The notes under the pieces are model-generated. The model did no database searches. It was not told where the DNA came from and saw only the letters and a list, made by a program, of their open reading frames with translations. Shown here in pieces: positions 48,153 through 58,203 of a stretch of 64,000 nt of DNA (position 1 is the first letter of the stretch; every line of letters starts with the position of its first letter). This stretch comes from Micromonospora terminaliae (GTDB lineage: Bacteria; Actinomycetota; Actinomycetes; Mycobacteriales; Micromonosporaceae), in assembly GCF_009671205.1 (NCBI RefSeq), contig NZ_CP045309.1, forward strand, positions 3,410,001 to 3,474,000, given 5' to 3'. Position numbers and translations under genes: made by a program.

Positions 48153-48340
48153 CCGACAGACACGACCACCGGCGGGCCCGCCGCCGGCGTCTGCGAGGTT
48201 CCTCGCGGTAACGACGCCGGTGCCGGGCCCGTCGTCGTCTGCGCTGCTCGCGCCCGCTTGGTGGCACCCGGCCCCCGCTGGGCCGTCGGGCAGGATGTGA
48301 GTCAAATGCGCGATTTCTTCAGATCCGTCCGCGTCGCGAG

Positions 48341-48448
48341 GATCCTTCTCATACGGTGGCGATCAGAGGCTGCAACCGATTTGTAGCTGGTCGCTCGACC
48401 TGGGGCGGTGCGACCCCTTTAGGTAGACCGAAAGGGCGGAAGGCTCTG
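48341..48448 (+). ncRNA. Structured 5' leader RNA of repeat protein A
   Basis: After a conserved promoter-like stretch CCTTCTCATACG, three stems can form: I, GCTGCAA-CCGAT-TTGTAGC (48369-48387); II, GGTCGC...GCGACC (48389-48415); III, CCCTTT...AAAGGG (48415-48436) with an inner GGT/ACC. Leader B at 50551-50658 has the same order, with two compensatory pair changes in stem III and a G-U to A-U change in stem I. ATCAGAG (48362-48368) may also pair with CTCTGAT (48444-48450), which covers the start codon. No known riboswitch motif was recognised. Confidence 0.65.
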
Positions 48449-50293
48449 ATGTCCAACGACGTAACGAAAAGCGACGGCGGGGCTCCGATGTCCCCGTCGG
48501 GAGGCAGGCGGCGGGCCCTCCTTGTCGCCACCGGCGTGGCCGGCCTGACCGGCGTCGTCGGGCTGGCGGCGCTCGGCGGCCTCGCGGCCCGGGACAACGA
48601 CAAGTCCGGCGCGCCGGAACGGGTGGCCGAGAACCGCGTGGCCGCGCCGCAGAAAGCCTCCGACGGCGACAAGGGCGCCCGCGAGGACGACAAGAACAAG
48701 GACAAGGACAAGGACGCCCGGGACCGTGGCGAGTGGGACGCGGACGGGGCGGACCACGGGAAGGTCCGGGAGGTGCCGTGTGACGACGACGACCTGGTCG
48801 AGGCGCTCGATCTGGCGAACCGGGATCACGGCGGCACGCTGAAGCTGGCCGAGAACTGCACGTACGAGCTGGACCGCAAGGACCGCAAGTTCGGCGCGGC
48901 GCTGCCGGAGATCAAGCAGGACATCACGATCAAGGGCAACGGCTCGACGATCAAGCGGGACTCCGAGGACACCTTCCGGATCTTCCGGGTGGTCGACGGT
49001 GGTGAGCTGACCCTGAAGGACCTCACGGTCAAGGGCGGCAACGCCACCGCCTTCAAGTACGGCGGCGGACCGCAGGTCCCCGGCGGGCCGGTCGCCATGG
49101 GGGCGCCGGGTGCGCCGGTCGGCCAGGACTCGGGCTCGCAGGGTTCGGGGTCGTGGGACAACGGCAAGGACAAGGACAAGGACAAGCAGGGCGAGGGTGA
49201 CGGTGGCGCCCTGCTGGTCGAGCGGGGCGGCAGCGCCAACCTGTTCAAGGTGAAGCTGACCGACAACAACGCCGAGGAGAACGGCGGCGCCATCGCCAAC
49301 TTCGGCCGCGTCCGCCTCGAGGACAGCAAGGTCACCGACAACCACGCCCGCGAGGACGGCGGCGGCATCTTCAACGAGGGCGTGCTCAAGGTCAAGGACT
49401 CCCACGTCGACGACAACACCGCCGGCGGCAACGGCGGCGGCATCGCCAACGGCAAGGGCAAGAAGGACGACCACGACAAGAACGGCTACGGCAACAGCAG
49501 CTACGGCAACAGCAGCTACGGCAAGGACGGCCACGACAAGGACCGCAAGGACCGCGACGAGGCCGGCACCGTCGAGATCACCGGCTCCGACCACGGCAAG
49601 GACAGCACCAAGAGCACCATCGAGAACAACAAGGCCGGCAAGAACGGCGGTGGTCTGTTCAGCTCCGGCGGCACCGTCACGATCACCCTCACCGTGATCA
49701 AGAGCAACACCGCCTGCGACAGTGGCGGCGGCATCTACGCGGTCGACACCGACCTCAAGCTCGACAGGGTCATCGTCGCCAAGAACCACGCCGACAAGGA
49801 CGGCGGCGGCATCGTCAACACCGGCGGCAAGGACAAGAAGAAGGACTGGTCCTCCAACGGCGGCGACAACAAGGAGCGCGACAACAAGGAGTCGGACGCC
49901 ACCGCCACCATCTCCGACAGCACCATCGTCGAGAACACCGCCAACCGCTTCGGCGGCGGCATCTTCAACGGCGACACCGACGTCAAGGTCGAGGACGGCT
50001 TCAAGGACGACCACGAGCACGGCGAGGACGACAACGCCACCCTCACCCTGCGCGACACCGAAATCAAGAAGAACACCGCCCTCAACGGCGGCGGCATCTT
50101 CAACAACAAGGGCAAGGTCACCCTGACCAACACCCACGTCACCAAGAACACCGCCACCGACACCGCCAAGCTCCACCGCGTCGCCGGCGGCGTCCTCAAC
50201 AACGAGGGCAAGGTCAAGCTCGACGACAAGTCCACCATCACCAACAACGACCCCACCAACTGCGCCAACACCGTCGAGGACTGCTTCGACTGA
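48449..50293 (+). CDS. Secreted beta-helix-like repeat protein A
   Basis: Protein of 614 aa. The N-terminus has a basic RRR followed by a hydrophobic stretch (ALLVATGVAGLTGVVGLAAL), either a Sec/Tat signal or an anchor. Then comes a very acidic/basic Lys-Asp linker (KNKDKDKDARDRGEWD), a conserved folded start (EVPCDDDDLVEALDLANRDH), and a series of about 10 repeats with the pattern NN-x-A-x2-N/D-GGGI-x-N, typical of right-handed parallel beta-helix proteins and chlamydial Pmp-like proteins. The end has a Cys pair (NCANTVEDCFD). Function unknown; cell-surface or matrix adhesion is a guess. ATG 48449 is behind the structured leader and GGAAGG. It has a close tandem paralogue downstream. Confidence 0.8.
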   Translation: MSNDVTKSDGGAPMSPSGGRRRALLVATGVAGLTGVVGLAALGGLAARDNDKSGAPERVAENRVAAPQKASDGDKGAREDDKNKDKDKDARDRGEWDADGADHGKVREVPCDDDDLVEALDLANRDHGGTLKLAENCTYELDRKDRKFGAALPEIKQDITIKGNGSTIKRDSEDTFRIFRVVDGGELTLKDLTVKGGNATAFKYGGGPQVPGGPVAMGAPGAPVGQDSGSQGSGSWDNGKDKDKDKQGEGDGGALLVERGGSANLFKVKLTDNNAEENGGAIANFGRVRLEDSKVTDNHAREDGGGIFNEGVLKVKDSHVDDNTAGGNGGGIANGKGKKDDHDKNGYGNSSYGNSSYGKDGHDKDRKDRDEAGTVEITGSDHGKDSTKSTIENNKAGKNGGGLFSSGGTVTITLTVIKSNTACDSGGGIYAVDTDLKLDRVIVAKNHADKDGGGIVNTGGKDKKKDWSSNGGDNKERDNKESDATATISDSTIVENTANRFGGGIFNGDTDVKVEDGFKDDHEHGEDDNATLTLRDTEIKKNTALNGGGIFNNKGKVTLTNTHVTKNTATDTAKLHRVAGGVLNNEGKVKLDDKSTITNNDPTNCANTVEDCFD

Positions 50294-50311
50294 AGAACCA
50301 CCACATAACCC

Positions 50312-50354
50312 GGGGAGTCCCTTTCCGCCGCGCCACGGCGGGGAGGGACTCCCC
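50312..50354 (+). terminator. Terminator hairpin after repeat protein A
   Basis: GGGGAGTCCCT (50312-50322) pairs with its complement at 50344-50354, with an inner CCGCCG/CGGCGG stem. It starts 18 nt after the stop codon. No T-tract follows. Confidence 0.7.
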
Positions 50355-50509
50355 TGCCCCCCGCGTCACCACCGGGTGGTTCGTCGTGCTCCCGTCCGGT
50401 ACGGGCCCTCCGTAGCGTCCGGTGGCCTTACGCCTTCGCCGAACCCCCTTCGCCGACCGGATGCCGTCCCGCGCCTGCGGTCCCCTCTGGGACCCGCCGC
50501 CCGGCCCAC

Positions 50510-50528
50510 CCCGTTTGCGGGTTTTTTT
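50510..50528 (+). terminator. Short hairpin with seven T residues
   Basis: CCCG-TTTG-CGGG followed by seven T residues (50522-50528), the form of a classical intrinsic terminator, unusual in such GC-rich DNA. It is the last element before the promoter of gene B and may insulate it. The rest of the 365-nt gap holds short GC-rich inverted repeats and no gene. Confidence 0.6.
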
Positions 50529-50550
50529 CGTATATGGGCGCGAGGTGAAG

Positions 50551-50658
50551 AACCTTCTCATACGTTGGTCTTCAGCAGCTACAACCGATTTGTAGCGGAG
50601 GCCGCCTCGCTGTGGCGAAGCGACCTTGTCGGGTACAAGGAGAGGGCAGAGAGCTCCG
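50551..50658 (+). ncRNA. Structured 5' leader RNA of repeat protein B
   Basis: Same architecture as leader A: CCTTCTCATACG, then stem I GCTACAA-CCGAT-TTGTAGC (50578-50596), stem II TCGCT...AGCGA (within 50606-50623), stem III CCTTGT-CGGGT-ACAAGG (50624-50640), then GAGAGGG and ATG 50659. Loop CCGAT of stem I is identical in both leaders, while stem III differs in sequence but pairs equally well. The conserved loop and changing stems suggest selection on RNA structure. Confidence 0.65.
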
Positions 50659-52626
50659 ATGTCCAACTACCTTCGCAATAACGATGACGCCTCCCGTGAG
50701 ACGACCTCCCCGCTCCGGCGCCGCCGGCTGTGGCTCGCCACCGGCGTCGTGGGCCTGACCGGAGCGGTCAGCCTCGCGGGCGTGGCCTACGCGACCACCG
50801 GGGTCACGGGCCCCCACCGGCTCGCCGACGTGAAGTGGTCGACCGCCCAGCTCACCAGCGACGACGAGGGTTCGGAGGCCCGGGACGACGAGCACGGCCG
50901 GGACGGCAAGGACAAGGACAAGGACAAGGACGCCCGGGACCGTGGCGAGTGGGACGCGGACGGGGCGGACCACGGGAAGGTCCGGGAGGTGCCGTGTGAC
51001 GACGACGACCTGGTCGAGGCGCTCGATCTGGCGAACCGGGATCACGGCGGCACGCTGAAGCTGGCCGAGAACTGCACGTACGAGCTGGACCGCAAGGACC
51101 GCAAGTTCGGCGCGGCGCTGCCGGAGATCAAGCAGGACATCACGATCAAGGGCAACGGCTCGACGATCAAGCGGGACTCCGAGGACACCTTCCGGATCTT
51201 CCGGGTGGTCGACGGTGGTGAGCTGACCCTGAAGGACCTCACGGTCAAGGGCGGCAACGCCACCGCCTTCAAGTACGGCGGCGGCGGACCCCAGGTCCCC
51301 GGCGGGCCGCAGGGCCCCTCCGCGCCGAGCAACGGCGCTCCGGGTGGCGCTCCGGGCAACGGCGCGCCGATGGCGCCCGCCGCCCAGACCGCGCCGGCCG
51401 CTGCGGCCGCCCCGGCCGTCATGGGCGCCCCGGCCGGCACCGCGGTGCAGGCCGCGCCGGTCGCGCAGGGCGCCCCGGTGGCCCAGGGTGCGCCCGTGGC
51501 CCAGGGTGGGCCGGTGGCGGTGGATTCCGGTCCGCAGGGTTCGGGGTCGTGGGACGGCGACAAGGACAAGGACAAGGACAAGCGGGGCGAGGGTGACGGT
51601 GGCGCCCTGCTGGTCGAGCGGGGCGGCAGCGCCAACCTGATCAAGGTGAAGCTGACCGACAACAACGCCGAGGAGAACGGCGGCGCCATCGCCAACTTCG
51701 GCCGCGTCCGCCTCGAGGACAGCAAGGTCACCGACAACCACGCCCGCGAAGACGGCGGCGGCATCTTCAACCGCGGCGTCCTCAAGGTCGAGGAATCCCA
51801 CATCGACAACAACACCGCCGGCGGCAATGGCGGCGGCATCGCCAACGGCAAGGGCGACAACACCAAGCACGACCAGTACGGCCCGAACAGCATCGAGAAC
51901 CCCTACGACAAGAACAAGGACGAGCACGACGAGGGCACCGTCGAAATCGTCGGCTCCGACCACGGCAAGGACGCCGTCAAGAGCACCCTGTCGGACAACC
52001 GCGCCGGCAAGAACGGCGGCGGCCTGTTCAGCTCCGGCGGCTTCGTCACCATCAGCTTCACCGCCATCACCGGCAACACCGCCTGCGAGAACGGCGGCGG
52101 CATCTACGCCGAGAACACCGTCCTCAAGCTCGACCACGTCCTCGTCGCCAAGAACCACGCCGACGGCAACGGCGGCGGCATCGTCAACACCGGCGGCAAG
52201 CACTGGGGCTACTCCAACGACAAGGAAGACGCCACCGCCACCATCTCCGACAGCACCATCGTCGACAACACCGCCAACCGCTTCGGCGGCGGCATCTTCA
52301 ACGGCGAGTGGCTCGTCAAGGTCGAAGACGGCTTCACCGAGCACAACGGCAGGGACAAGGACGACAACGCGACCCTGACCCTGCGCGACACCGAAATCAA
52401 GAAGAACACCGCCCTCAACGGCGGCGGCATCTTCAACAACAAGGGCAAGGTCACCCTGACCAACACCCACGTCACCAAGAACACCGCCACCGACACCGCC
52501 AAGCTCCACCGCGTCGCCGGCGGCGTCCTCAACAACGAGGGCAAGGTCAAGCTCGACGACAAGTCCACCATCACCAACAACGACCCCACCAACTGCGCCA
52601 ACACCGTCGAAGACTGCTTCAACTGA
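50659..52626 (+). CDS. Secreted beta-helix-like repeat protein B
   Basis: Protein of 655 aa, tandem paralogue of protein A. The N-terminus has RRRRLWLATGVVGLTGAVSL, a twin-arginine-like signal, followed by a Lys-Asp linker and the same conserved start (EVPCDDDDLVEALDLANRDH). It differs from A by a ~75-residue Ala/Pro/Gly/Gln-rich insert (repeats of APVAQG near residue 270) before the GGGI-x-N repeats. The last 80 residues are nearly identical to A. The DNA is identical to gene A over 372 nt and over 233 nt, with much lower similarity between, which points to gene conversion. Function unknown. It ends before a strong terminator. Confidence 0.8.
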   Translation: MSNYLRNNDDASRETTSPLRRRRLWLATGVVGLTGAVSLAGVAYATTGVTGPHRLADVKWSTAQLTSDDEGSEARDDEHGRDGKDKDKDKDARDRGEWDADGADHGKVREVPCDDDDLVEALDLANRDHGGTLKLAENCTYELDRKDRKFGAALPEIKQDITIKGNGSTIKRDSEDTFRIFRVVDGGELTLKDLTVKGGNATAFKYGGGGPQVPGGPQGPSAPSNGAPGGAPGNGAPMAPAAQTAPAAAAAPAVMGAPAGTAVQAAPVAQGAPVAQGAPVAQGGPVAVDSGPQGSGSWDGDKDKDKDKRGEGDGGALLVERGGSANLIKVKLTDNNAEENGGAIANFGRVRLEDSKVTDNHAREDGGGIFNRGVLKVEESHIDNNTAGGNGGGIANGKGDNTKHDQYGPNSIENPYDKNKDEHDEGTVEIVGSDHGKDAVKSTLSDNRAGKNGGGLFSSGGFVTISFTAITGNTACENGGGIYAENTVLKLDHVLVAKNHADGNGGGIVNTGGKHWGYSNDKEDATATISDSTIVDNTANRFGGGIFNGEWLVKVEDGFTEHNGRDKDDNATLTLRDTEIKKNTALNGGGIFNNKGKVTLTNTHVTKNTATDTAKLHRVAGGVLNNEGKVKLDDKSTITNNDPTNCANTVEDCFN

Positions 52627-52704: not shown

Positions 52705-55700
52705 TCAGCTCTGGACGAAGACCGCCACGCTGCGGGCCGGCACGGTGAACGTGCCGCCGGCCCGGTCGAAGGACGCCGTCCGGAGCACCGGGTCAGCGGA
52801 GTTCCTCAGCACCGGGTGCAGCGCCACGTTCGCCCCGCGCAGGCCGGGAACGGTCTGCTTCGCGGTCTCCGGGGTGCCGTTGAAGACCACGGTGACGGAC
52901 TTCCACTTCCCGTCGAGCCCGCGGGCGTCGAGGGTCATGGTGATCACGCCCGGGGTCTCCCGGTCGCCGGAGAGCGGGAAGGCGACCCGCTTCTGCACCT
53001 GGTCGGCGGTGGTCAGACCGAAGACCGGAGAGGAACGCCGGATGGTGAGCAGCTCCGCGTACCGGGCGTCGGCCAGGTCGATGGCGGCGCAGTCCGGCAC
53101 CAGCTTCGGGTCGGCCAGCAGCGGCTTCGCGTACGGCCACTTGTCCTTGTTGTCCTGCTCGGGTGGCAGGCCGGCGCCGAAGCCGTTGCCCTGGGCGCAG
53201 TCCCAGCGAATCTGGTTGAACCAGTCACCGGAGTTGAACGAGTTGCGGTCCAGCGACTTGGAGCGCAGCCGCTCCGAGCCGGCCGTCACGAACCCGGTCC
53301 CCTGACCCATCACCACGGTGCTCAGGGCGAGCACCTGCATCCGCGCCCGGTCCTGCGCCGAGGTCCCCTGCGGCAGCTTGTACGCCAGCGCGTCGTACAG
53401 GATCTCGTTGTCGTGCGCGTCGACGTAGGTGACCGCCTCGCCCGGGGCCGCCGTGTAACCGGCCGGCGAGCCGTTGTAGTCCACCTGCGCGCCGGTGACT
53501 GGCCGGCCGGACGAGTCGGTGAACCGGTAGCCGCGCAGGTTGCCGGTCAGCCCCACCTTGATGAGGTCCTGCTGGTGCAGCAGCCGCGCCTTCTGCTCGG
53601 TGGCCGACCCGTTGACGTCGTCCCCGTTCGGGTCGGTGAGGAGCCCGGACGCGAAGCCCTGGATCCGCGGGTTGCCGTCGAACGGGCCGCCACCGCGCAC
53701 CGCGTCGCGGAGCCGGTCGTTGAAGGTGCCGATGCCGGTGCCGGCCATGTTGGCCTGGGTGGCCTGCACGAACCGGGCGTCGTTGGCCACCTCGCCGAAG
53801 TTCCAGCCCTCGCCGTAGAGCAGGATCTTCTTCCCGTCCACGCCGTCGCGGGCCGGGGTCAGCTGGTCCAGGGCGGCGCGGACGGCCAGGATGTTCGCCT
53901 TCGGGTGGTGGCCCATGAGGTCGAACCGGAACCCGTCCACCTTGTACGCCTTGGCCCAGGTGACCAGGGAGTCCACGACGAGCTTGCCCATCATGGCGTG
54001 TTCCGGGGCGGTGTTGGCGCAGCAGGTCGAGTTGGCGACGGTGCCGTCCTCCAGCAGCCGCTGGTAGTAGCCGGGCACGACCTGGTCGAGCACCGACTTC
54101 GGGTCGGTGCCGGCGGCCGAGGTGTGGTTGTAGACGACGTCCATCACCACACGCAGGCCGGCCTGGTTGATCCCGGCGACCATCTGCCGGAACTCGGTGG
54201 TCCGCTTCGCCCCGGCCGGGTCGACCGCGTAACCGCCCTCCGGCACGGTGTAGTGCAGCGGGTCGTACCCCCAGTTGTAGCCGTCCTTGTCGGCGACCGC
54301 CGCGACGCACTTCTGCTGCTCGTCGGAGTCGGGTGGCAGGGCGGCCAGGTCGCAGGCGGGCTGGGCCTGGTCGGCCCGCTTTTCGGGAATGGTCGCGAAG
54401 TCGAACGCCGGCAGCAGGTGCAGGTAGTTGACCCCGGCGTCGCCGAGCGCCTTCAGGTGCGTCATCCCGGCCGTGCCCGGGTCGGTGAAGGCGAGGTAGG
54501 TGCCCCGCCGCTCGGCCGGCACGGTGGTGTCGGCGATGGAGAAGTCGCGGACCGACAGCTCCTGGATCTGCGCCTTCGCCGAGGGCACGGCCGCCGGCTT
54601 GCGCAGGTTCGCCCAGCCGGCCGGGGCCAGCGCCGGGTCGGCCAGGTCGACGATCTGGCTGTGCGTCGAGTCCGGCGCGAGGGCCACCGAGTACGGGTCG
54701 GTCACCGCGGCGGTGACCACCTTCTGCGCCGCCGGCTGCCAGGCCTCGACCTGGTACCGGTAGTACTTACCGGTCCAGCCCTTCGTGCCGCGCACCGACC
54801 AGACGCCGGTGCGGTCGTCGCGGCTCATCGACACCGTCCTCGGCTCGGCCGCCGGCGCGTCGAAGAGCTGGAGCGACACCTTCCGGGCGGTCGGCGCCCA
54901 GACGGCCAGGGTGGGCACCTTGCCGGCGAACGTGGGGCCGAGCTTCGCGCCGGTCGCGGCCCGGTAGACGTCGTCGAGCACGCCGGGGATCTGCACCCCG
55001 GTGGCCCCGAGCAGGTGGCCCTCGGCGTCCCGCTCGGTCACCACGAGCTGGCCGCGCAGCGCCGCGGGCACCTTGGCCAGGTCGGCGCGGTCCAGCGTGA
55101 AGGCGCGATAGGCCCAGAGCTGGGGGTACGCCTGCCGCTGGGCCTCGGTCAGCCCGTTGCGCGCCGCCCGCAGCGGCAGTGTGGTGTACGTCCCGGTCAG
55201 CTCGCCGTCGGCGATGCCGATCCCGCCGGCCGGGGCGGCCACCAGGGCGTACCGCTTGCCGTCGGTCGGCCCGGTCTGCCAGGCCACGGTGGACCGGTCG
55301 ATCCACTGCGCCTTCTGCTTGGTGATGTCGAGGTCCTTGGCGACGCCGGACGAGGTGGGCGGCAGCAGCCGGCCCTTGACCCCGGCCAGCAGCCAGATCT
55401 CGTGCCCGGCGGTGGCGAAGTCGAGCCGCTGGTCGTCGGGCTGGTCCTTCTGGTCGCCGTTGTGCACGATGTAGTTCAGCCCCGTGGCCCCGGCCGCGAG
55501 CGGCACCCGGAAGACCGCGCCGTACGCGTCGATCTTCTCGGGCTTCAGCGGGTTGCCCCAGTCGGTCGGGTTGGCGGCGCCGTCCCACAGGTGCAGGCCC
55601 CAGCCGTCGTAGTTCCCGTCGGCCTTGCGCCAGTGGATGACCGCGGTGTTCTGGTCGACCGGCTGGTCGGGCTCGCCGGTGGCAGCCTGCCGGGTCGGGT

Positions 55701-58203
55701 AGAGGGCCGGGTCGCCCTGCTTGACCCACACCTCGCCGGTCTGCGTCACGTCGATGCTGCGGTCGTTCGCGACGTCCTTGTTGCCGTCCTTGTCGACCAC
55801 GAGGAACCCGACGGACTTCGCGCCGGGCTTCAGCTTGACCCAGGCGAACCGGCCGAAGGAGTCCTCACCCGCGAACGGCTGCCCCTTGGGCCACTCGGTC
55901 TGGTACGCCGGGTCGATGTCGCCCCAGGTGTAGAGGCCCCAGTCGGCGTACCCCCCGGCGGGGCGCTGGTAGTGCACGACCGCCCAGTCCCGGGACACGC
56001 TCTGGGCCGGGGTGCCGACCACACCGGTGGTCCGCGCGGCGGCCACCCGGCCCCTGCCGTCACGGACCACGGCCTTGTACTCGACCTTCGTCCCGCCGGC
56101 CAGGCCGGTCAGGTCGTGGTGGACGGTGTACGGGGCCTTGTGCGCGCTGCCCAGGAGGGTCCACTTGCCGCCGGGGACCCGGGCCGCGAAGGTGACGGTC
56201 GCGAGGGGGTCGCCGGTGACCTGCGCGGTGACCGTGGCCTTCGTCGCGACCGGCGCGTCACCGGGCTCGGTGAGGGTGATCGCCGGGGCCGCCCCGGCCT
56301 GCGGGATGGCCCGGTCGGCCTTGAGCACCACGGCCGACATGGCCGGCACGGTCACGCCGAGCTTGCCGTCGGCGCCGGCGGTCGCGGTGGCGGCGCCGCC
56401 GTAGACGCCCGCGAAGGTGGCGCCGGCCGACCAGGTGTCCACGGTGACAGTCTGCGCCGTGGCGGCGTTGTTCACCGCGACGACGTACTCGGTGCGCTCC
56501 GTCGGCAGGACGCGGGAGAAGGCGAAGACGCCCGGCCCGTCGGCCGCGTACCGGGTGACCTGGATGCCGTCCCGCAGCGCGGGGTGGGCCTGTCGCAGTT
56601 TGCCCAGTTCCGCGATGGTCCGGTAGAGCGGGTGGGTGGTGTCGTACTGGTCGCTGGCGTGGGTGCGGGTGGTGCCGATGAGGTCGTCGTCGAGGTAGTC
56701 CGCCGTCTTGCTGGCGAACATGTCCTGCCGGGCGTCCTTGTCCCCGCCGGGACCGGTGAAGCCCTGCTCGTCGCCGGAGTAGACCACCGGCTGGCCGCGG
56801 GTGAGGAACATGAGCTGGTGGGCGAGCTGGTCGCGCCGGAGCTGGCTGGCGTCGTCGCCCCCGGCGGCCGCGATGAACGAGCCGATCCGGCCCATGTCGT
56901 GGTTGCCGAGGAAGGTGGTCAGCCGGTTGGCGTCGGTGTCGCGCGCGGCGTAGAGGTCGTCCTTGGCGTACAGGTCCGCCAGCGCCCGGGCCGAGCCGTC
57001 CGCGGCGGCGTAGCCCCGGGCGGCCTCCTGGAAGGAGAAGTCGAGGGTGGCGGGCAGGCCGCCCTGCCGCACGTAGGTCGACTCGATCTCCTGGTCGGCG
57101 CTGTAGACCTCGCCGAACATGAAGAAGTCCGGCTTGCCGGCCTTGGCCGCGGCCGCCTCGATGCCGCGGGTGAACTGCGGCCAGAAGTCGAGGTTGGTGT
57201 GTTTGACCGTGTCGAGGCGGAAGCCGTCGACGCCGGCCTTGCCGATCCACTGTGCGTAGATGTCGGTCATGCCGCGGACCACCTCGGGACGCTCGGTCCA
57301 GAGGTCGTCGAGGCCGAAGAAGTCGCCGTACTCGCTGTTCTCACCGGCGAAGGTGGAGTCGCCCCGGTTGTGGTACATGGTCGGGTCGTTCAGCCAGGCC
57401 GGCACCTTCACCTTCGCGTCGGCCGGGGTGGCGAAGGCCGGGGTGTACGGGAACGACGTGCCGTCCACCCGCGGGAACGCCCGGGTGCCGTCGGCGTAGT
57501 TGCGATCCTCGAAGGCGCGCCCCTGGTCGTCGGTGTAGGGGGACGTCTTCTTGTCGACGTAGCCGTACTTGTCCTCGGCGTACCGGATGACGTCCGCGGT
57601 GTGGTTGACGATGATGTCCAGGTAGACCTTGATGCCCCGCTGGTGGGCCAGGCCGACGAGCTTCGTCAGCTCCGCGTTGGTGCCGAAGTGCGGGTCGACC
57701 TGCGTGAAGTCGGTGATCCAGTAGCCGTGGTAGCCGGCGGAGACGTCCGCGCCGGTGCCCTGCACGGGCCGGTTCTTGAAGATCGGGGCGAGCCAGATGG
57801 CCGTGGTGCCGAGGCCCTGGATGTAGTCCATCCGGTCGATGACGCCTTTGAGGTCACCGCCGTGGTAGAAGCCCTTGTCCGCGGGGTCCAGGCCGGTACT
57901 GAGCCGGTCGCCGGTCAGCCCGCCGGTGTCGTTGCGCTTGTCGCCGTTGGCGAAGCGGTCCGGCAGGACGAAGTAGAACTGCTCGGCCTTCGCGCTGGTG
58001 GTGCCGGCCTTGAGCAGCGTCTCGGCGGACGGCTCCCGGCCCCACTGCGCGGCGCCCGCGGCGGCCAGCACGTCGGGGGTGGCGGACCGGTCACTGCCGT
58101 CGGCCCCCAGCTGGTGGAGGGCCACCGGCACGCCGACGAGGGTGAGCACGAGGGAGGTGGCCAAGGCGGCGAGGGCCTTGAGGGATATCGGCGGGGGTTT
58201 CAT
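52705..58203 (-). CDS. Secreted amylase-pullulanase fusion (two GH13 domains)
   Basis: Very large extracellular enzyme of 1832 aa. A signal peptide ([20 protein letters not shown]) is followed by a complete alpha-amylase GH13 domain: DIIVNH at 196-201, GFRLDTVKH with nucleophile D331, FGEVYS with E365, GNHD at 433-436. Next are an Ig-like domain, two CBM41-type (PUD) starch-binding modules ([40 protein letters not shown]), a CBM48-like module, and a second, pullulanase GH13 domain: DVVYNH at ~1355, [10 protein letters not shown] with D~1428, GEGW with E~1465 and VDAHDN. Together they would cut alpha-1,4 and alpha-1,6 bonds in starch, glycogen or pullulan. All catalytic residues are present in both. 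Upstream is a CTTGCAAACCAAG site that may bind a LacI-type maltose regulator. Confidence 0.93.

Follow-up and report, generated by a model that had tools for sequence, protein, structure and literature searches.

Two neighbouring genes of Micromonospora terminaliae, here called A and B, are each preceded by a structured leader that is under selection, its shape being kept while its letters change; the structure is well supported. The genes lie in the window, a stretch of 64,000 nucleotides (nt) from contig NZ_CP045309.1 (positions 3,410,001 to 3,474,000 of the forward strand) within a genome of 6.74 Mb, and all coordinates given below are those of the window. By computation, the fold and strand of the leader were established, as were its constant spacing from a -10 box and its association with a single protein family. 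In Micromonospora, Plantactinospora and a small number of further genera in the family, it stands before genes for parallel beta-helix proteins.

Both leaders were found where an earlier reading, made from the letters alone (the sequence-only reading), had placed them, between a putative promoter and the ATG (Table 1). The layout is the same before both genes: a TANNNT hexamer is followed by stem I (GCTRCAA CCGAT TTGTAGC), stem II, a purine-rich stretch and the start codon.

Table 1. Coordinates of the leaders, their elements and the genes that follow them.
Feature	Position	Strand	Remarks
Leader A	48341..48448		ATG at 48449
Upstream DNA element of leader A	48305..48326	+	approximate consensus AATGYGGGNTTTTTTCGGATA; -10 box 47 nt downstream
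Putative -10 box, leader A	48352..48357	+	TACGGT; TANNNT present in 78 of 78 A5 matches
Stem I, leader A	48369..48387	+	GCTGCAA CCGAT TTGTAGC
Stem II, leader A	48389..48415	+	GGTCGC...GCGACC; 3' end overlaps the proposed stem III
Weaker stem IV, leader A	48433..48447	+	AGGGC-GGAAG-GCTCT; GGAAG, resembling a Shine-Dalgarno (SD) site, in the loop
Gene A, coding sequence	48449..50293	+	614 amino acids; probably secreted beta-helix protein
Leader B	50551..50658		ATG at 50659
Upstream DNA element of leader B	50514..50537	+	same motif as in A
Putative -10 box, leader B	50561..50566	+	TACGTT; TANNNT pattern
Stem I, leader B	50578..50596	+	GCTACAA CCGAT TTGTAGC; fully paired (100% of cells) across 47 B-type leaders
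Stem II, leader B	50598..50627	+	3' strand overlaps the proposed stem III
Weaker stem IV, leader B	50644..50656	+	GGGC-AGAGA-GCTC; 97.3% of cells paired, no double changes
Gene B, coding sequence	50659..52626	+	655 amino acids; probably secreted beta-helix protein

Covariation, strand and position of the stems

When 39 leaders of the A type and 47 of the B type were aligned, the two proved to be distinct paralogues throughout the genus. Together the alignments hold 86 of the 90 distinct leader cores; the A-type leaders L035, L038 and L043, which have a gap near the SD site, and L046, a near-copy of leader A itself, were left out. Among the A-type leaders alone, both sides have changed at 8 of the 12 pairs of stem II and at none of those of stem I. 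In the B-type leaders, six of the seven pairs of stem I are invariant, as is its apex in all 47, while at pair 52-79 of stem II 27 of the 47 have G-C and 20 have A-U.

Widened covariance models (R1-R3) recruited leaders with stems that share few letters with A or B. Stem II, which is present in A, B and most of their relatives, reads CCGCGCC/GGTGCGG in Plantactinospora and TCTGCAC/GTGCAGA in the MSNYLHPN group, where one base of stem I is also changed. The MSTY group has new stem I arms (e.g., GACCGAC/GTCGGTC), with letters that are unrelated even among the members of the group. In the wide set A5 (78 matches, 75 distinct rows), 95.2% of the cells of stem I are paired, with both-side changes at all seven pairs, and 75.6% of those of stem II, with both-side changes at all 12. 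The whole structure holds 170 double-change cells in A5, as compared to 59.7 after shuffling and 29-65 when the structure was slid. Set A7 consists of 31 matches from 40 regions chosen by their proteins, none of which was used for model building; its covariation score was 0.390 versus 0.168 in shuffled alignments, with one false match among the rows (L268, E = 0.018) and one leader that is already in A5 (L274, there L235). Single-sequence folding gave a mean z of -2.95 for stem I (53 distinct segments, 79% at p<=0.05) and of -2.03 for stem II (68 segments, 54% at p<=0.05).

The sequence-only reading had described three shared stem-loops in the same order and had argued for selection from compensatory changes in the third. 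Stem I was confirmed, including the change from G-U in A to A-U in B with the loop CCGAT unchanged, and it is followed by a covarying stem II that overlaps the proposed stem III. Stem III itself (A 48415-48436, B 50624-50640) did not survive. Its 3' arms are not homologous: that of A ends 12 nt upstream of the ATG and that of B 18 nt, and since the arms lie at different positions, the differences between them cannot be compensatory. The fourth pair is open in 28 of 38 and the sixth in 27 of 39 A-type leaders, and the third pair, one of the two said to be compensated, is open in 27 of 46 B-type leaders; the remaining pairs are mostly kept, and neither the A nor the B helix beats shuffles. The arm positions and these counts on the 39 A-type and 47 B-type leaders rule out stem III as a conserved helix. 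The case for selection on structure nevertheless holds, through the covariation of stems I and II. The outcomes named beforehand as grounds for abandoning the claim, a lack of further covariation or a match to a known Rfam family, were both looked for, and neither overturned the core claim.

The weaker stem IV is paired in 99.5% of the A-type cells, again with no double changes, and one of its pairs passes a two-set covariation test in A7. As a general SD hairpin it was rejected: leaders A and B retain it, other leaders do so in part, and several groups lack it.

The types of mismatch, counted as events on the tree, bear on whether stem I is an RNA hairpin or a palindromic DNA operator for a repressor just past the -10 box. 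A dyad of 7-5-7 at a fixed distance from that box is in the classical place of an operator. However, a duplex would be broken equally by A-C and G-T, and in stem I of A5 changes from Watson-Crick pairs to G-U outnumber those to A-C by 25 to 6 (p=4e-4), with 10 to 4 in A7 (p=0.09); stem II leans the same way, with 28 to 16 in A5 (p=0.048) and 11 to 4 in A7 (p=0.06). The earlier set A4, which overlaps A5, gave 21 to 3 for stem I and 33 to 19 for stem II. For stem IV there was no G-U excess in A5 (7 to 9), and the count was 4 to 0 in A7. The excess thus favours an RNA of the plus strand for stems I and II. The operator is further opposed by a G-U pair that would be a broken dyad in 31 of the 39 A-type leaders, and by the MSTY leaders with their mutually unrelated arm letters, and we consider it very unlikely.

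The position of stem I is nearly fixed. Its first modelled base follows the TANNNT hexamer after 10 nt in 20, 11 nt in 57 and 12 nt in one of the A5 matches, from which the spacing was taken, that is, after 10-11 nt in 77 of 78; the covariance model contains the -10 stretch, so the leaders found were partly selected for TANNNT. In the MSTY group, the real stem I reaches a few bases beyond the modelled first pair. Micromonospora belongs to the same family as Actinoplanes. For Actinoplanes, a published study gives TAnnnT as the -10 motif in 98% of mapped promoters (PMC7682106). A promoter scan for a known sigma factor found no site of the sigma-70 type, and the TANNNT box alone is firm. Farther upstream, an AT-rich element was located with a lax motif of 23 nt (up to 13 mismatches); in 72 of 75 leaders the best match lies 47-49 nt ahead of the -10 hexamer. 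It is perhaps an activator site or an alternative promoter element.

Occurrence of the leader and the genes behind it

Within the genome of M. terminaliae, the stem I word has two matches within two mismatches, both at this locus. Within one mismatch it occurs in 117 of 121 genomes of the genus, as compared to 5 matches in total for the reversed control word. Model R3 recovered the leader in 172 of 354 genomes and 6 of 44 genera of the family (E<=0.01), a count that includes at least one false genome: 159 of 160 genomes of Micromonospora, 7 of 7 of Plantactinospora (g32) and 6 genomes in g10, g36, g21 and g20. Inspection of the hits outside the main genera showed those in G139 (a single hit), G140 and G155 to be real and that in G185 to be false. 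The false match, L231, has no family gene behind it and still scores E=3e-5, which shows that the E-values are rough. Up to five leader matches were obtained per genome, where the matches were not all inspected.

Beyond the family there was little to be found. Of 296 genomes drawn from the class, three had a match, all in Micromonospora and none outside. Of 298 genomes drawn from the order and searched with R2, 48 had a match at E<=0.1, of which 44 were in Micromonospora and four, with weak matches, lay outside the family (E 0.0086-0.089); three of these four were inspected (L152-L154), and no family gene follows them. Five matches from another search (L113, L114, L116, L117 and L118, E 3e-4 to 0.036) also fell away, with no family gene behind them.

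The genes that follow the leader belong to a single protein family. Family members were preceded by 12 of 17 matches in the first inspected batch (one gene being truncated), where the exceptions were L113, L114 and L116-L118, by 16 of 20 in the second, where the exceptions were a stem without a gene (L151) and L152-L154, and by 6 of 7 in the third, where the exception was L231. Among the genes read there were no metabolic genes and no other protein family. In the reverse direction, 30 of the 40 regions chosen by their proteins carry the leader directly before the start codon; the regions were taken from listed protein hits, about half of them from one orthologue group, and are no random sample. 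The leader is not obligatory for the protein. The regions without a recognisable leader are L244, L266, L267, L269-L272 and L276, and also L268 and L275; seven of the ten come from members of the genus with genomes of 5.1-5.6 Mb, and L275 showed no open reading frame of the family. Of the 44 genera, 6 have the leader and 8 the protein (E<=1e-15), the latter being the same six and two marginal ones.

Single loci showed other arrangements. One genome has a third tandem leader and gene with a diverged stem I (L067:9510-9624), one locus has a leader-like stem I without its gene, which is probably a relic (L151:4084-4198), and at one locus a diverged leader stands before a truncated family gene adjoining a longer copy (L115:4599-4713).

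Proteins A and B have a basic-hydrophobic N-terminus that resembles a signal peptide; they are probably secreted and carry repeats of the Chlam_PMP type (Pfam PF02415), with POMP_repeat also matched. The fold of protein A was derived through the model of a relative: the predicted structure of this relative of 512 amino acids is, with high confidence, a right-handed parallel beta-helix, with 326 residues at a predicted local distance difference test (pLDDT) score >= 90 and residues 1-102 at low scores. Its best matches in the PDB include alginate epimerases, which, like the other best matches, we take to be beta-helices; the scores were modest (best E 4.8e-5, template-modelling score 0.33). Protein B itself had no match in the PDB by sequence.

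At 48694-49050 and the corresponding part of gene B, the two gene bodies share about 98-100% identity. In windows of 60 nt, identity is 62-72% in the leaders and 45-65% in the stretch that codes for the N-terminus. The pattern looks like gene conversion of the bodies with the leaders kept apart. Downstream of gene B, a gene for a fused alpha-amylase and pullulanase of 1832 amino acids lies on the minus strand (52705-58203).

How the leader might act

The reading that we put foremost, tentatively and at somewhat less than an even chance, is that of a double hairpin at the 5' end that protects the mRNA and is perhaps also bound by a factor. The transcription start, the stabilisation of the mRNA and any factor are here what we infer. 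The leader RNA would be transcribed from the conserved promoter and would measure about 67-86 nt if transcription starts 7 nt past TANNNT, as we assumed. With that start, hairpin I would lie within a few nt of the 5' end of the mRNA (about 5 nt), followed in nearly all members by hairpin II and then by the purine-rich SD region and the AUG. The two hairpins would slow decay that depends on the 5' end, and with the ribosome site outside the conserved fold, the probably secreted proteins would be produced steadily; where the apex CAACCNATTTG is kept, stem I may in addition bind a factor. Stem-loops at the 5' end are described as protecting some bacterial mRNAs (PMC7509114).

The place behind the promoter, letters that are free while pairing is kept, the lack of a terminator and the lack of SD occlusion all fit a protective 5' leader. 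No terminator-like site was found on the plus strand between 48200 and 50800, by which a transcription attenuator was dismissed. By eye, SD-like purines lie about 5-8 nt upstream of the ATG. In 73 leaders, with the start site assumed, the predicted unpaired fraction was 0.43 for the SD site and 0.445 for the AUG, versus 0.40 and 0.396 in shuffled leaders. Control of translation, as the sequence-only reading had suggested, is unproven; the predicted accessibility of both sites is no lower than in shuffled leaders. The same reading had a long-range pair, ATCAGAG/CTCTGAT, cover the start codon in A. The pair is real in so far as it is kept in 94.9% of the A-type cells, but it shows no covariation: apart from G-U, every departure among the A-type leaders breaks the pairing. 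By eye it is absent from leader B of M. terminaliae and from Plantactinospora, and as a general mechanism it was set aside, being of the A-type only. A coding function of the leader was rejected as well, since any one frame is open in at most 61 of 108 leaders and the leader length modulo 3 varies. An ATG occurs between the -10 box and the start in 36 of the 108, so that a short upstream open reading frame is possible in some members.

Several observations weigh against a protective 5' end. The apex CAACCNATTTG is nearly invariant in A, B, Plantactinospora and the MSNYLHPN group, which exceeds what a stabiliser needs and points to a binding partner; across groups the letters of stem I are replaced with pairing kept, yet within several groups the apex is conserved. 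The start site is a presumed one, and so is any effect on the half-life. A quarter of the regions found by protein (10 of 40) are without a leader. Whole leaders fold with mild stability (mean z -0.95, 75 leaders), L112 and L148 are almost without stem II, and stem I is poor in several weak members (L018, L115, L230, L235 and L236). In a home-made phylogenetic null of the R-scape kind over all column pairs, which is uncalibrated and may be too strict, no pair reached E<0.05, and in the weaker two-set test, confined to structure pairs, 2 of 24 passed in A5 and 2 of 24 in A7. Fitting to the structure shaped the alignments A3-A5 and A7, which lean towards it.

The strict null and the invariance within types (six of seven B-type stem I pairs without change, A-type stem I without changes on both sides) could be taken to mean that there is only duplication and sequence conservation, with stems that match by chance. 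We regard this as the least credible of the explanations, given that the covariation of the wide set exceeds both shuffled and slid controls, that stems I and II have the folding z-scores reported above, and that stem I sequences which differ wholly between groups still pair. A riboswitch or RNA thermometer, in which a ligand or temperature opens or closes the ribosome site, would suit the size, place and conserved fold of the leader, the SD site that stem IV of A and B carries in its loop, and the A-type pair able to cover the AUG. Stem IV and that pair are, however, not general, the predicted accessibility of the SD site and AUG is no lower than in shuffled leaders, Rfam gave no match, and the genes read encode one protein family and no metabolic functions. 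By eye, no core letters are common to all groups, with the MSTY group lacking both the shared apex of stem I and the linkers, and a ligand switch is less likely for want of such a core; we hold the switch to be improbable.

Alternatively, the leader may be the site of a trans-acting factor, an RNA-binding protein or a small RNA, which would switch translation or decay of the leader-bearing paralogues together. Its contact points would be the apex CAACCNATTTG and the linker GTGTCT/GTCTGGTA. The apex is invariant in the 47 B-type leaders and is kept in A, Plantactinospora and the MSNYLHPN group while the letters of stem II drift, and the up to five matches per genome, not all of them inspected, would form a regulon. 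The MSTY group, however, replaces the apex wholly and keeps the pairing only, and no candidate factor is known, none having been sought. We rate such a site as possible but doubtful. Its fuller form, in which the leader-bearing members of a variable family of surface proteins in the Micromonosporaceae are controlled jointly after transcription by a factor that recognises the CAACCNATTTG hairpin, with gene bodies homogenised by conversion, distinct leaders and an MSTY leader rewired to a new hairpin, seems to us unlikely.

Known leader RNAs and meaning for the family

Searched at the gathering score, Rfam 15 had no match to the leader, either in the window (0 matches) or in nine divergent loci (two tRNAs only). 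Between 47800 and 51000, five matches appeared at E<=5, to four microRNA models and one small RNA model, and none lay on the leader. Even at this threshold there was no match to the ydaO, GEMM or cobalamin families, in agreement with the sequence-only reading. Its suggestion of a new, cis-placed RNA before probable surface-protein genes is likewise borne out, by the lack of an Rfam 15 match and by the probably secreted repeat proteins downstream. Searches of open-licence PubMed Central papers returned no title or abstract start that describes the leader, which is no proof of absence. Very likely, this is a leader family lacking in Rfam 15, an undescribed RNA element acting on these messages.

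In actinobacteria, ydaO-type leaders often stand before cell-wall genes. The riboswitches for cyclic di-AMP (ydaO), cyclic di-GMP (GEMM) and cobalamin resemble the present leader in position, whereas the leader consists of two simple hairpins and has no multi-helix core. The motifs Actino-pnp (RF01688), mraW (RF01746) and msiK (RF01747) are also structured RNAs upstream of actinobacterial genes, and are presented in PMC2864571 as proposals from comparative genomics; unlike them, the present leader matches no Rfam 15 model in the window or the nine divergent loci. A further likeness is to 5'-terminal stem-loop stabilisers, for which reference-list titles in PMC3997798 and PMC3765725 name ompA, papA, the Bacillus subtilis aprE leader and Mycobacterium smegmatis gyr. 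They share a hairpin at or near the 5' end of the mRNA, which here depends on the start that we infer, a usable ribosome site and no need for sensing. Those examples are single genes, whereas here a single family of two-hairpin leaders, set at a constant spacing from the -10 box, is found before several paralogues and in several genera. We regard the leader family as new and a known way of working as plausible for it.

The analysis adds a covarying, lineage-specific leader RNA whose close association is with a single family of probably secreted parallel beta-helix proteins of Micromonospora and relatives. With so many natural variants, some of them replacements of whole arms, the roles of structure and sequence can be tested directly. 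Should the leader work as proposed, it would supply high-GC hosts with a naturally occurring 5' stabiliser; should it be bound by a factor, it would mark a post-transcriptional regulon for surface proteins.

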